From the NCBI GenBank assembly GCA_018816345.1, contig JAHIWG010000102.1:1-38412 (forward strand): 38,412 bases of DNA, read 5' to 3'. The notes beneath the pieces are model-generated. The model saw only the letters and a program-made list of their open reading frames with translations. It had not been told where the DNA came from and did not search any database. Both the position numbers and the translations under genes were made by a program. The stretch comes from Spirochaetota bacterium (GTDB taxonomy: Bacteria; Spirochaetota; Spirochaetia; Treponematales; UBA12059). Position 1 is the first letter of the stretch; the number at the start of each line of letters is the position of its first letter. Positions 28,790 to 33,992 of this stretch are shown here, in pieces.

Positions 28790-28848
28790 GGAGACGCGCC
28801 AGGCTGTATAGTGCGCGACGGCGGACGCGGCCGCCGAGGGCGCTTGAA

Positions 28849-28868
28849 TACTATACGCATGTGTAGTA
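28849..28868. promoter_or_regulatory. 20-bp dyad over promoter of mutagenesis operon
   Basis: TACTATACGCATGTGTAGTA: 8-bp arms with one mismatch around GCAT. It contains the -10 candidate TATACG (28852-28857) and ends 10 nt before the DUF72 start codon. A LexA-type repressor is the natural expectation for an imuB-dnaE2 operon, but the sequence is not a known LexA box. Confidence 0.45.
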
Positions 28869-28878
28869 AAACTTGAGT

Positions 28879-29691
28879 ATGGACGAGACGCCCGATTCAC
28901 GATGCGATATCCGAGTAGGCACCTCGGGATACGACTATCCCGAGTGGGAGGGATCGCTCTATCCCCGCGGGCTCGGGCGCTCGGAGTACCTGGGCGCGTA
29001 TAGCGAGGCCTTCGAGACGCTCGAGCTCAACTTCTCGTACTACGGCATGCCCAAGCCCGCGGCCATGCGCGCGATGGCCGCGCGGACGAGGCGCCCCATA
29101 GACTTCTCCGTCAAGGCCAACCAGGCGCTGACCCATAGGATAGACCCCGCGGGCTGGAAGGCGGCCGCGGCGGAATTCGCGTCGGGCGTCGCGCCGCTCG
29201 CGGAGGAAGGGCGGCTCTGCGCCGTGCTCGTCGGGTTCCCGTTCTCGTTCAGGTACCGGGACGACGAGCGGCGCTACCTGGACAGGCTGCTCAAGGAGCT
29301 CTCCTCGTTCCCCCTCGTCGTCGAGTTCCGCAACGCCGATTGGTTCAGCTCCCGCGTCATCGAGGGCCTGAAGGCGCGCGGGGTAGGGCTGTGCGCCGTG
29401 GACCTCCCGAGGCTGGACGGCCTGCCGCCCGTGTCCGACCTCGTCACCTCCGACCTCGCCTACGTGCGGTTCCACGGGCGTAACGGCGAGGCCTGGTGGA
29501 CGGGGGACTCGGGCTCCCGCTACGAGTACCGATACTCGGCCGAGGAGCTGTCGTCGTGGCTGCCGAGGCTCGAGGCGATGAGCGTCGAGGCCAAGCGGCT
29601 CCGGGTGTTCTTCAATAACCACCGCCGCGGCAACGCGCCGGCCGACGCGAAGGCCCTGCTGGGCCTCGCCAGGGCCGCGAAGCTCCTGTAG
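28879..29691 (+). CDS. DUF72 (YecE-like) TIM-barrel protein
   Basis: 270 residues. The DUF72 family has a TIM-barrel fold resembling AP-endonuclease-type barrels, but its biochemical role is unsettled. Motifs: VGTSGYDYPEWEGSLYP near residue 14, FETLELNFSYYG, FSVKANQALTH, VEFRNADWF, YVRFHGRNG and FFNNHRRGNAPADA. Start is ATG 28879; TTG 28873, two codons earlier, is possible. No ribosome site is visible, so a short or leaderless transcript from the dyad promoter is likely. It lies 12 nt before the ImuB-like gene and is therefore probably part of the DNA-damage mutagenesis operon, in place of the imuA usually found there. Confidence 0.88.
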   Translation: MDETPDSRCDIRVGTSGYDYPEWEGSLYPRGLGRSEYLGAYSEAFETLELNFSYYGMPKPAAMRAMAARTRRPIDFSVKANQALTHRIDPAGWKAAAAEFASGVAPLAEEGRLCAVLVGFPFSFRYRDDERRYLDRLLKELSSFPLVVEFRNADWFSSRVIEGLKARGVGLCAVDLPRLDGLPPVSDLVTSDLAYVRFHGRNGEAWWTGDSGSRYEYRYSAEELSSWLPRLEAMSVEAKRLRVFFNNHRRGNAPADAKALLGLARAAKLL

Positions 29692-29703
29692 CGGGACCCC
29701 GCG

Positions 29704-30912
29704 ATGGGCTCGGGCACCGTCCTGCACGTGAACGCCGTCGGCCTCATGGCCTCCATCGAGGAGGGCCTCGACGCGTCCCTCCGGGGGCGCCCCTTCGTCG
29801 TGGCCAACGAGGGCGGGGCCCGGGCCGTGGTCCTCGACGTGTCGGGCGCCGCGCACCGGGAGGGCCTGCGCCGGGGCATGCCGCTGTCCGCGGCGCGGGC
29901 CTTCCTGCCGGGCGTTGCCATCGTCGCCCCGCGGCTCGAGCTGTACCGCGGCGCCGAGGACCGGCTCTGGCGACTGGCCCTCGAGTACACGCCGCTCGTC
30001 GAGCGGGCGGGGCCGGGCCACCTCTTCGTCGACCTCGCGGGGACGGGGCGGCTGTACGGCTCGGCCGCCGACGCCACCCAGCGCTTCCGCTCGCGCGTCC
30101 TCGCGGATACGGGCCTCAAGCCGGCCCTCGCCCTGTCGTCCACGAAGACGGCGAGCAAGGTGGCCACGCGGGTCTTCAGGCCTGGCGGCTTCGTGGCGCT
30201 GTCGCCGGGGGAGGAGGGCCTCCTCGTCAGGCGGCAGCCCGCGTCCCTCCTGCCCGGCGTCGGGCCGGTCCTCCTGGGCAGGCTCGCGCTCCTGGAGATA
30301 GACGACATAGGCGGCATCGCCGACCTGAGCGATAGGGAGGCCAGGGCCATCGGCCCCAAGGGGCCGGAGCTGGTATCGCGGGCGCGCTGCCGGGACGACT
30401 CTCCGGTCGACCCCCGGCCGCGGGAGCGGCGCTCGGTCTCCGGGGAGGCCGTCTTCGAGCCCGACACGACCGACCCCGATACCATACGCCTCAGGCTAGC
30501 GGCGCTCGCCGCCGAGCTCGCCTTCTCCCTCCGCAAGGACGGGCGCGCCTTCCGCCGCGCCGAGCTATCGCTGTGGTATACCGACGGGCTATCGAGCCCC
30601 GGCTCGGCGCGCTCCGCCAGGACGCTGTGCCGGGACGACGAGGCCCTGGGCCTCGCGCTGGCGGCCTTCGAGCGCGCCAGGGGTCGGCGCGTCCGCGTCA
30701 GGCGCGTCGTCCTGTCCCTGTCGGGCATAGAGGCTGCCGGGCCGGAGCTAGACCTCTTCGAGCCCGAGGACCTGCGGCTGGTCAGGCTCCAGGCGGCCCT
30801 CGACGCGATACGCGGCCGCTACGGCGGCGCGGCCATAGAGCCCTGCGCGATGCTCGCCCTCGGGGCCGCGCACGGGGCCGCGCACGGGGCCGCGCACGGG
30901 ATCGCTCGATGA
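29704..30912 (+). CDS. imuB: Catalytically degenerate Y-family polymerase, ImuB-like
   Basis: 402 residues, DinB-type fold without polymerase active site. In active DinB the carboxylates lie in HVDMD and SLDE; here the aligned segments read HVNAV (N10) and GPGH (G105, H106), so all three metal-binding acids are missing. Downstream landmarks remain: LALSSTKTASKVATRV, LLPGVGPVLLGRL helix-hairpin-helix, little-finger region to about 340, and a clamp-binding-like ELDLF near residue 350. Known ImuB is such a dead polymerase that recruits DnaE2 to the beta clamp. The stop overlaps the dnaE2 start (ATGA). The C-terminus ends in an expanded GAAH repeat. Confidence 0.88.
   Translation: MGSGTVLHVNAVGLMASIEEGLDASLRGRPFVVANEGGARAVVLDVSGAAHREGLRRGMPLSAARAFLPGVAIVAPRLELYRGAEDRLWRLALEYTPLVERAGPGHLFVDLAGTGRLYGSAADATQRFRSRVLADTGLKPALALSSTKTASKVATRVFRPGGFVALSPGEEGLLVRRQPASLLPGVGPVLLGRLALLEIDDIGGIADLSDREARAIGPKGPELVSRARCRDDSPVDPRPRERRSVSGEAVFEPDTTDPDTIRLRLAALAAELAFSLRKDGRAFRRAELSLWYTDGLSSPGSARSARTLCRDDEALGLALAAFERARGRRVRVRRVVLSLSGIEAAGPELDLFEPEDLRLVRLQAALDAIRGRYGGAAIEPCAMLALGAAHGAAHGAAHGIAR
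30862..30897. repeat. In-frame 12-bp tandem repeat at end of imuB-like gene
   Basis: Three perfect copies of ggggccgcgcac, encoding GAAH three times just before the stop codon. Confidence 0.9.
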
Positions 30913-33900
30913 TAGCGCCGCTGCTCGTAACGTCTACCTACTCGTTCCATTTCGGCGCCGCCTCGCCCAAGGCGCTCGCGCGCCGCGCCAAGTCGCTCGG
31001 CTACGAGGCCCTGGGCCTCTCCGACCGCAACGGGCTCTACGGGATCCCGGCCTTCCTGGAGGCCTGCTCGGCCGAGGGCCTCTCGCCTATCGTCGGTACC
31101 GAGCTCGTCTACGGTCCGGGCGCGGACGCGGCGGCCGTGGCACCCGGCGGGCGCGCCCTCCTCGTCGCCATGGACGAGAGCGGCTTCTCCCGCATATGCC
31201 GCATCCTCTCCGCCCGATCGGACCCCGGCTTCGACGCGCGGGCCGAGCTGTCGCGGGACTCCCGCGGCCTCTCCGTGGCGACGGACGATCCCGTCCTGCT
31301 GGCCGCCGCCGGCTCCGAGGGTTTCTACGCCCTCCTTTCCCCGTGCAACCGTCCGCTGTGGCGCGGTCTCCTCAGGTCCGGCAGGCGGCCGCTCGCCGTC
31401 GGGGAGGTCCGCTTCCTCGGGCCGGAGGACCGCGCGCTGCAGAGGCTCCTCATCGCCATCGGGAGCGGCAAGACGGTCGCCGAGGTCGGCGAGGGCGAGC
31501 TTTCCGGCCCCGACGCCGTCCTCTCGGATCCAGCCGCCTTCGAGGCCGCCTACTCGGCGGCGCCCTCCGCCGTCGCCGAGAACCTGGCCCTCGCCGGCCG
31601 CGTGTCGTTCCGTACGCCGTTCACGGGCTTCGTCTTCCCGCGCTATAGCGGAGCGCCGGGAGAGAGCTCGGCCGCCGCGCTCAGGCGCCTCGTATACGAG
31701 GGCGCCGCGGGACGGTACGGCGACGGCCTGGACGCGCCGGTCCGCGGGCGCATAGAGCGCGAGCTCGGGATCATCGAGTCCAAGGGGTTCTGCGACTATT
31801 TCCTGGTCGTGCGCGACATAGTCCGCAAGGCCTCGCGGACCTGCGGGCGGGGCAGCGCGGCCGCGAGCGTCGTGTCCTACGCCCTCGGCATCACCGACGT
31901 CGATCCCATACGCCACGGCCTCTACTTCGACCGTTTCCTCAACCCGGGCAGGGAGGATCCGCCCGACATAGACGTGGACTTCGCCTGGGACGAGCGCGAC
32001 GACCTCCTGGCCTCGGTGATAGCGGACTACGGCGAGGCGAGGGCCGCCCGGGTATCCAACCACGTCTGCTTCCAGGAGCGCTCGGCCCTCCGCGAGACGG
32101 CCCGGGCCTTCGGCATACCGGACGGCGAGATATCCGCCTACGAGCGGCGCCTGGCCTCCCGCGGGAAGCCCGAAGCCGCGGGAGCCGTCGGCGATTCAGG
32201 AACCGTCGGCGATTCAGGAGCCGTCGGCGATTCAGGAGCCGATGAGCCCGACGACGACTGGAGAGAGATAGCCAGGCTCGCCCCGCGGCTCGCCGGGATT
32301 CCCCGCCACCTCGGGGTGCACTCGGGCGGCGTCATACTCGTGCCTGGCGACATAACGGACAGGGTGCCCATAGAGCGGAGCGGCTCGGGCATCCGCGTGA
32401 CGGCCTGGGAGAAGGACGGCGTGGAGGCGGCCGGCCTCGTCAAGATAGACCTGCTCGGGAACCGGTCGCTCGCGGTCGTCAGGGACGCGCTCGCCAACGC
32501 CTCGGATAACGGCGAGCCCGTGGACGAGCGTTCCTGGCGTCCCTTGGACGACCCCGCCACGGTCCGGCTCCTGGCCGAGGGCGACACCATGGGCGTCTTC
32601 TACGTGGAGTCTCCCGCGATGCGGCTCCTGCAGAGGAAGACGCGCCGCGGCGACTTCGAGCACCTGGTCATACACTCGTCGATCATCAGGCCGGCGGCGA
32701 ATCGCTATATTAACGAGTACATCGACCGCCTGGGCGGCAAGGAATACGAGCCGCTACACCCTCTCATAGGGGATATCCTCGCCGAGAGCTACGGCATCAT
32801 GTGCTACCAGGAGGACGTCTGCAAGGTAGCCGTCGCCCTCGCCGGCTTCACCCCGTCGGAGGCCGACAAGATACGCAAGATACTCTCCAAACGCGACTTC
32901 GCCGAGCGCCTCGTCTCTTATAGGGAGAAATTCTACTCGGGCGCCCGCGGCAAGGGGGTTCCCGACGCGACGATAGGCGAGGTATGGGCGATGATAGAGT
33001 CGTTCTCCGGATACTCGTTCGTGAAGGCGCACTCCGCGAGCTACGCGATGCTCTCGTTCCGGTCCGCCTACCTCCGGCGCCATCGGCCGGCCGAATTCAT
33101 GGCCGCCGTCATCTCGAACCGCGGCGGCTATTATTCAACGCTCGCCTATGCGAGCGAGGCGAGGCGCATGGGGCTCTCCGTCCTGCCTCCCGACGTCGGC
33201 GAGAGCGCGCTTCGATGCCGAGGCCGAGGCCGGGAGCTACGCTTCGGGCTGGGCATGATAGGCTCCCTCGGCGAGGCGAGGGCCAAGGCCATAGTCGACG
33301 AGCGCCGCGCGCGGGGGCCGTACCTCGATATAGACGACCTGGCGAGGCGCGTCCGCATGGACCGCGTCGACGCCGAGGCCCTGGCCGGCGCGGGCGCCCT
33401 GGACTCCCTGTCGCCTATGCTATCCCGGGCCGGGAAGCTCATGCGCCTCCTCTCGGCCTGCGAGGACGGCGGGGCCCGACGCCCGGTAGGCGGCTCGTCC
33501 GCGCCGGGGGGCGGGTTCCCGGCGCAGGGCGAGCTGTTCGCCGCCGAGCCGGCCGGCTCCCGGTTCGGCAGCCCCGGCGCCCGCGCGCCGGGGGCCGGCG
33601 GCGAATCACCCGAAGGAGCCAGGCGGCGGCTGGAGGCGCAGATGCGCTACCTAGGCACGACGCTCGACGTCCATCCCCTAACGCTGTGGCCGAGGGCGCT
33701 CTCGGCCCGCCGAGCCCTCGGCCGGGACCTCCCCGCCCTCGTGGGCCGCCGCGTATCCCTCGTAGGTTGGCCCATAACGGCCAAGCCCGTCGTCACCGCG
33801 GGAGGGCAGGCCATGGAGTTCGTTTCGTTCGAGGACGAGACCGCGCTCTACGAGACGGTGCTCTTCCCCGCGGCCTTCGCGCGCCATAGGCACCTGCTCT

Positions 33901-33992
33901 ACGAGCAGCGCCCGCTACTACTCCGCGGGATCGTGGAGGAGGACCGGGGGGCCGTCACGGTGACGCTGGAAAGCCTGGAGAAGATAGGCTAG
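30909..33992 (+). CDS. dnaE2: Error-prone DNA polymerase, DnaE2/ImuC type
   Basis: C-family DNA polymerase for damage-induced translesion synthesis. 1027 residues, within the DnaE2 range and shorter than replicative DnaE1. The start at 30909 overlaps the imuB stop. The N-terminal PHP region begins LLVTSTYSFHFGAASP, lacking the HxH pair, so it is probably inactive as a nuclease or metal site. The polymerase core is intact: RGSAAASVVSYALGITDVDPI, PDIDVDF (catalytic Asp pair near 353 and 355), GVHSGGVIL and KIDLLGN (third Asp). Helix-hairpin-helix and OB domains follow, ending in LESLEKIG. An in-frame 18-bp triplication inserts a VGDSG linker. The stop shares CTAG with the convergent kinase gene. 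Confidence 0.92.
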   Translation: MIAPLLVTSTYSFHFGAASPKALARRAKSLGYEALGLSDRNGLYGIPAFLEACSAEGLSPIVGTELVYGPGADAAAVAPGGRALLVAMDESGFSRICRILSARSDPGFDARAELSRDSRGLSVATDDPVLLAAAGSEGFYALLSPCNRPLWRGLLRSGRRPLAVGEVRFLGPEDRALQRLLIAIGSGKTVAEVGEGELSGPDAVLSDPAAFEAAYSAAPSAVAENLALAGRVSFRTPFTGFVFPRYSGAPGESSAAALRRLVYEGAAGRYGDGLDAPVRGRIERELGIIESKGFCDYFLVVRDIVRKASRTCGRGSAAASVVSYALGITDVDPIRHGLYFDRFLNPGREDPPDIDVDFAWDERDDLLASVIADYGEARAARVSNHVCFQERSALRETARAFGIPDGEISAYERRLASRGKPEAAGAVGDSGTVGDSGAVGDSGADEPDDDWREIARLAPRLAGIPRHLGVHSGGVILVPGDITDRVPIERSGSGIRVTAWEKDGVEAAGLVKIDLLGNRSLAVVRDALANASDNGEPVDERSWRPLDDPATVRLLAEGDTMGVFYVESPAMRLLQRKTRRGDFEHLVIHSSIIRPAANRYINEYIDRLGGKEYEPLHPLIGDILAESYGIMCYQEDVCKVAVALAGFTPSEADKIRKILSKRDFAERLVSYREKFYSGARGKGVPDATIGEVWAMIESFSGYSFVKAHSASYAMLSFRSAYLRRHRPAEFMAAVISNRGGYYSTLAYASEARRMGLSVLPPDVGESALRCRGRGRELRFGLGMIGSLGEARAKAIVDERRARGPYLDIDDLARRVRMDRVDAEALAGAGALDSLSPMLSRAGKLMRLLSACEDGGARRPVGGSSAPGGGFPAQGELFAAEPAGSRFGSPGARAPGAGGESPEGARRRLEAQMRYLGTTLDVHPLTLWPRALSARRALGRDLPALVGRRVSLVGWPITAKPVVTAGGQAMEFVSFEDETALYETVLFPAAFARHRHLLYEQRPLLLRGIVEEDRGAVTVTLESLEKIG
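32184..32237. repeat. In-frame 18-bp tandem repeat in dnaE2
   Basis: Three copies of (g/a)ccgtcggcgattcagga at 32184, 32202 and 32220, encoding AVGDSG/TVGDSG/AVGDSG. It probably extends a surface loop between conserved blocks. Confidence 0.92.

Follow-up and report, generated by a model that had tools for sequence, protein, structure and literature searches.

In a 38,412-nt stretch of DNA from a Spirochaetota bacterium (GCA_018816345.1, contig JAHIWG010000102.1, positions 1-38,412; the whole stretch is referred to here as the window), a gene encoding a DUF72 protein lies directly upstream of genes for a catalytically inactive Y-family protein (iPolY) and a DnaE2-type error-prone polymerase. 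DUF72 is a widely distributed family, found in E. coli, B. subtilis and archaea, for which structures have been solved and a function is yet to be assigned. The DUF72/Y-family/DnaE2 operon is confirmed as real and conserved, and its gene arrangement is not by chance: in all 56 homologous loci that could be tested, from at least three phyla and with zero exceptions, DUF72 precedes the Y-family gene. Judged from its motifs, the backbone of the operon is the known iPolY-DnaE2-RecA mutasome, to which DUF72 is a new constant part. An initial annotation of the sequence had suggested a role for DUF72 in translesion synthesis. The fixed linkage in all testable relatives supports this suggestion, and DUF72 very probably has such a role.

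Conservation of the DUF72-iPolY linkage

The features described in the initial annotation are all present in the sequence, and the three genes are tightly packed. The DUF72 and Y-family genes are separated by 12 nt, and the Y-family gene is joined to dnaE2 by the ATGA at 30909-30912, as had been claimed (Table 1). To read neighbouring genes, strong Y-family loci were taken from a search of 149 relatives, most of which are draft assemblies and whose locus counts are not independent. Within the order, DUF72 is the next upstream gene on the same strand in 34 of 34 loci with the upstream side present, the two genes overlapping by as much as 43 nt or standing up to 30 nt apart; two more loci end inside the Y-family gene and therefore stand outside this count, and at locus L073 the copy is decayed and the gap wider. 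In the tabulation of neighbours that the initial annotation had called for, DUF72 was not found beside unrelated genes in all relatives; it adjoins the Y-family gene in all testable relatives that carry that gene.

The linkage extends beyond the order. A search across the Spirochaetota separated nearly all iPolY-family proteins (>350 bits) cleanly from Pol IV (at most about 221 bits) and yielded 15 more loci from other families and classes; each has DUF72 upstream, and DnaE2 follows downstream wherever the contig extends far enough. Scanning named genomes added records from Treponema, Gracilinema and Sphaerochaeta and six Fibrobacterota loci, again with DUF72 upstream throughout. The Fibrobacterota cassettes that could be read to that side start with lexA (TIGR00498, 207 bits), which is followed by a repair-type radical SAM gene (TIGR03916, 304 bits, below the cut-off of 343.5). 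In Desulfosarcina ovata subsp. sediminis, a mobilizable plasmid (NZ_AP021877.1, L257:6304-12079) carries lexA, DUF72, a hypothetical protein and DNA polymerase III alpha, in which the hypothetical protein is an iPolY relative with an apparently mis-set start. The presence of this lexA-DUF72-iPolY-dnaE2 set on a mobilizable plasmid indicates that the cassette can probably move between bacteria. Four other plasmid-borne DUF72 genes (Hymenobacter, Oceanithermus, Paraburkholderia, Bradyrhizobium) had no polymerase neighbour.

Some individual loci vary in composition. The run of lexA, radical SAM (TIGR03916-like), DUF72 and iPolY is seen at L088:4181-8155 and L091:4103-13126, both from Fibrobacterota, and in L091 two transporter-like genes lie ahead of dnaE2. 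A DUF72-iPolY pair without DnaE2 downstream occurs at L057:4897-6895 (genome G029). Upstream of the window's operon is a divergent RF3-type (prfC) gene, which as a neighbour is confined to loci of the same genus.

Table 1. Genes, protein motifs and regulatory candidates of the operon, with positions in the window.
Feature	Position	Strand	Remarks
Candidate promoter	28844-28872	+	-35-like TTGAAT 28844-28849, 17-nt spacer, -10-like TAAAAC 28867-28872; 6 nt before DUF72 ATG
Palindromic operator candidate ACTATACGCATGTGTAGT, probable LexA site	28850-28867	.	zero mismatches to ACTAYACNNNNGTRTAGT; 0.06 expected in window
DUF72 (YecE/Tm1631-type) TIM-barrel protein, 270 aa	28879-29691	+	ATG at 28879; PF01904 E 1e-57
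iPolY, catalytically inactive Y-family protein, 402 aa	29704-30912	+	IMS 1.2e-27, IMS_C 1.5e-11
ELDLF, beta-clamp-type motif of iPolY	30745-30759	+	L351 and F352 invariant, D350 at least 90% (30 relatives)
RecA-NT-like tail LQAALDAIRGRYGGAAI of iPolY	30787-30837	+	RecA N-terminal 18-mer best match there in 24/30 relatives
DnaE2-type error-prone polymerase, 1027 aa	30909-33992	+	DNA_pol3_alpha 6e-66

The Y-family protein is an iPolY

The positions of the three catalytic acids in the Y-family protein are occupied by N10, G105 and H106. Across 30 aligned relatives N10 and G105 never vary and H or N always stands at position 106, so the loss of all three acids, reported for the window's protein in the initial annotation, is a trait of the family. 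The clamp-type motif ELDLF noted there is likewise present. Besides it the genome encodes a single IMS protein, a Pol IV whose first catalytic motif (FFHIDLD) is intact.

The identification of this protein as ImuB, by contrast, was not borne out. ELDLF is followed by the tail LQAALDAIRGRYGGAAI, which resembles the N-terminus of RecA (RecA-NT motif), and then by a short, variable and partly repetitive end (24 residues in the window); no ImuB-C beta-barrel domain was found after the RecA-NT motif in the window or in the 30-relative alignment. The ImuB label was rejected because this domain is missing. The motif was assessed by scanning the 18-residue RecA N-terminus, from both the host and E. 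coli, against whole iPolY proteins. With either RecA, 24 of 30 best matches fall on the tail, as against a chance expectation of well below one. Scores of single proteins are modest (mean 22-23, as compared to a shuffled best of 15 and a 99th percentile of 27-28), and the evidence is therefore the recurrence across proteins. The motif is also kept in the iPolY tails of Fibrobacterota and Desulfosarcina. The very end of the window's iPolY is a GAAHGAAHGAAHG repeat of 12-nt units (30870-30905), at which slippage may occur shortly ahead of the start of dnaE2.

Y-family/DnaE2 operons that lack ImuA have already been described (PMC6511836, PMC12926913; Timinskas and Venclovas), and in the published iPolY-DnaE2 systems the RecA-NT motif of the Y-family protein is read as a sign that the partner is RecA itself (PMC6511836, PMC12926913). 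The tail on the window's iPolY likewise suggests that the place of ImuA is most likely taken by RecA rather than by DUF72; the genome encodes one RecA that exceeds the Pfam cut-off. As the initial annotation had stated, no imuA is adjacent to the operon. Among the loci examined across phyla a RecA-like gene was never seen beside the Y-family gene, where DUF72 or lexA was found instead. A profile search also found no imuA-imuB-dnaE2 cassette elsewhere in the genome, an arrangement that the initial annotation had named as evidence against its proposal. No ImuA match over the model cut-off was obtained in this genome or the 149 relatives, with a model that reached the cut-off in 0 of 14 control genomes, including Caulobacter, so that the absence of imuA from the whole genome is probable but not proven.

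Structure and reciprocal decay of DUF72

The window's DUF72 matches PF01904 with 196 bits (cut-off 25.3) and is predicted to fold as a TIM barrel (predicted local distance difference test score, pLDDT, of 91.5). The closest fold is that of Tm1631 (PDB 1VPQ; Z 31.6, 34% identity), a DUF72 protein with the same pocket residues and a function that is itself only modelled: endonuclease-like DNA binding has been predicted for it (PMC3828134, PMC4939058), and its pocket binds sulfate, taken as phosphate-like (PMC3828134). The Tm1631 pocket residues map onto the window's DUF72, in which the putative active site is intact except for G119 in place of Q. The next folds, all close together, are MbnB, sugar epimerases, UV-damage endonuclease (UVDE; 4gle, Z 14.4) and endonuclease IV (EndoIV; 5zhz, Z 13.7). 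UVDE and EndoIV belong to the same TIM-barrel fold class as DUF72, a class shared with many sugar isomerases.

A comparison of 73 DUF72s, comprising operon and unlinked copies, revealed 16 pocket positions that are near-invariant in most members of both groups. In 11 operon DUF72s these positions are partly or largely lost, most mildly in genome G006. At twelve other positions (FPYRLDWRVDPR in the window) the 11 degenerate copies hardly vary, and some of these positions are changed in the nearest unlinked sisters, with L for F120 and A or G for D135. The three pairs of degenerate copies tested gave ratios of nonsynonymous to synonymous substitution (dN/dS) of about 0.24, 0.27 and 0.12, indicating that these genes are not free pseudogenes and remain under purifying selection. 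In a tree they fall in two separate clades, and the window's intact copy lies outside one of them.

The loss of the pocket is reciprocal between copies. All 11 genomes with a degenerate operon DUF72 hold another DUF72 with intact pocket residues (three of these sisters are cut by contig ends or a gap and are intact where readable), as compared to 0 of the 21 genomes counted with an intact operon DUF72 that have an intact sister of that type. In G089 and G098, in which the operon DUF72 is intact, the sister is itself degenerate. A distant DUF72 subfamily, present in several genomes including the window's own (contig C22), was excluded from the sister count. Fisher's test gives p = 8e-9 for classes assigned by hand after the pattern had been seen and for genomes that are related; a cautious count gives two decay events among operon copies and a single one among sisters, each in the direction expected. 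This pattern suggests that the enzymatic and structural roles of DUF72 are separable, the simplest reading being that each cell would have one catalytic DUF72 in addition to a structural place for DUF72 in the mutasome.

Predicted promoter and operator

The promoter layout of the window (TTG-N3, 17 nt, TA-N4) is found before the DUF72 start in 22 of 35 operons, as compared to a mean of 0.42 and a maximum of 2 in shuffled sequences. The distance from the -10 element to the DUF72 ATG is 6 nt in 21 of the 22 operons with this layout and 7 nt in the remaining one. Because the -10 element ends so close to the ATG, the operon mRNA is predicted to be leaderless at DUF72.

Within the promoter spacer of the Spirochaetota operons sits the palindrome ACTAYAC-N4-GTRTAGT. 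Only 2 sites with one mismatch or fewer occur in the window's own 3.8-Mb genome, in which LexA is encoded. Three relatives carry similar palindromes ahead of lexA, and two others carry them a short way ahead of Pol IV genes; these placements point to LexA as the likely protein to bind the candidate operator. The second copy in the window's genome (G000:C61:17270-17287, L097) is intergenic, on the upstream side of an mraZ-like gene.

DUF72 in other settings and comparison with known systems

DUF72 genes were also observed next to other polymerases. Two genomes of the order have a canonical DUF72 immediately after the Pol V operon, giving the arrangement umuD-umuC-DUF72 (L171:3889-6311 and L172:2338-4862). 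In a genome of the f3 family, DUF72 abuts the start of a further Y-family polymerase gene of 462 aa (L181:2053-4283). A 2025 paper reports that DUF72, whose TIM barrel it describes as kin to UVDE, is enriched to some degree near polB2 (PMC11791011). This was the only published link between DUF72 and translesion synthesis found, and no paper linking DUF72 with ImuB or iPolY-DnaE2 was found, supplements aside.

The system described here most closely resembles the putative DnaE2B-iPolY-RecA mutasome of the gbDinB2 and scDinB2 groups, with which it shares an inactive Y-family protein bearing a RecA-NT motif, a DnaE2 in the same operon and the lack of ImuA and ImuB-C (PMC6511836, PMC12926913). It differs in the constant presence of DUF72 upstream, a family that does not appear in the main texts of PMC6511836 and PMC12926913. 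With the ImuA-ImuB-DnaE2 cassette it shares the dead Y-family protein, DnaE2, the clamp motif and, probably, LexA-type control, whereas here ImuA was not found, the ImuB-C domain is missing and DUF72 is present. In PolB2 mutasome neighbourhoods DUF72 is likewise somewhat enriched near an error-prone polymerase and lexA (PMC11791011). However, that polymerase is of another family and DUF72 is occasional there, whereas it is found in every testable locus here.

Proposed role and alternatives

On balance, we think it probable that the product of the operon is an iPolY-DnaE2-RecA type of translesion mutasome, inducible by DNA damage, and that DUF72 is a dedicated further component of it, docking by its conserved surface and binding or processing damaged DNA. 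DNA damage would relieve LexA from the operator inside the promoter. The iPolY, unable to polymerise, would then act as a scaffold that holds the beta clamp through ELDLF, docks on RecA through its tail and carries DnaE2. The DnaE2 keeps its active-site motif PDIDVDF (31962-31982), but its N-terminal PHP region, as read from the sequence, is degenerate and without the usual histidines that a canonical PHP motif carries; the polymerase would thus probably work without proofreading. DUF72, with its phosphate-binding pocket and a fold class that includes EndoIV, UVDE and sugar epimerases, may dock on the mutasome via the surface conserved in operon copies, and damaged DNA would be its substrate there.

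Several observations weigh against this proposal. The palindrome was not found upstream of the genome's own lexA and recA. Many DUF72 genes occur in other contexts that are not near polymerases. The fold match to repair nucleases, with 10-14% identity to UVDE and EndoIV in aligned parts, is no better than that to sugar epimerases, and DUF72 crystals show no metal (PMC3828134). A fused DUF72-iPolY model, in which the TAG between the genes was read as Q, the linker is only a few residues and paired rows are few, folded both domains (pLDDT 85) but gave no confident interface (predicted template modelling score of 0.50). Lastly, the decay pattern rests on few independent events.

A less probable possibility, though one to be taken seriously, is that DUF72 is a free-standing DNA-repair enzyme, such as an incision or lesion-binding protein, that is co-regulated with the mutasome and not a physical part of it. 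The proximity of its TIM barrel to UVDE and EndoIV, the presence of an intact DUF72 in cis or in trans in the genomes compared and the linkage of DUF72 to several different polymerases (including PMC11791011) would all fit such an enzyme. A purely enzymatic role, however, leaves unexplained why purifying selection maintains operon copies that have lost the pocket and why their surface stays invariant.

We consider it rather improbable that DUF72 acts on nucleotides or sugar phosphates, in pool sanitation or as a signal, and so supports error-prone synthesis indirectly. Sugar epimerases and isomerases are among the nearest folds outside DUF72 and the Tm1631 pocket accepts a phosphate-like ligand (PMC3828134), but the linkage is to polymerases and lexA, and no partner from nucleotide metabolism was seen in the operons.

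The initial annotation had placed DUF72 in the position of ImuA. Its upstream location and the failure to find imuA agree with a functional replacement, yet this is very unlikely and was not supported, given the RecA-NT tail of iPolY and the RecA of the genome, the TIM barrel of DUF72 where a RecA fold would be expected of ImuA, and the occurrence of DUF72 beside umuDC, whose partner is RecA. That an ordinary DUF72 merely happens to lie beside an ordinary polymerase operon is scarcely credible: the family is common and many copies are unlinked to polymerases, but the 56 loci from three phyla hold no exception, their genes overlap or nearly touch, and DUF72 is separately linked to UmuDC and another PolY.

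The dedicated mutasome component favoured above may be one case of a wider function. We put forward, tentatively and with less than even confidence, that DUF72 could serve bacterial translesion mutasomes in general (iPolY-DnaE2, UmuDC, another PolY and PolB2) as an auxiliary factor in two separable capacities: one catalytic or lesion-binding, which any intact copy in the cell could supply, and one structural, which could survive alone in a pseudo-enzyme subunit.

Linkage to an error-prone polymerase in an operon that is fixed across at least three phyla offers the DUF72 family a concrete and testable pathway, that of coping with DNA damage. The copies that have undergone reciprocal decay are natural mutants that separate the proposed catalytic role of DUF72 from its structural one. 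For mutasomes without ImuA, described in surveys as consisting of iPolY, DnaE2 and RecA only, DUF72 would be an added component.

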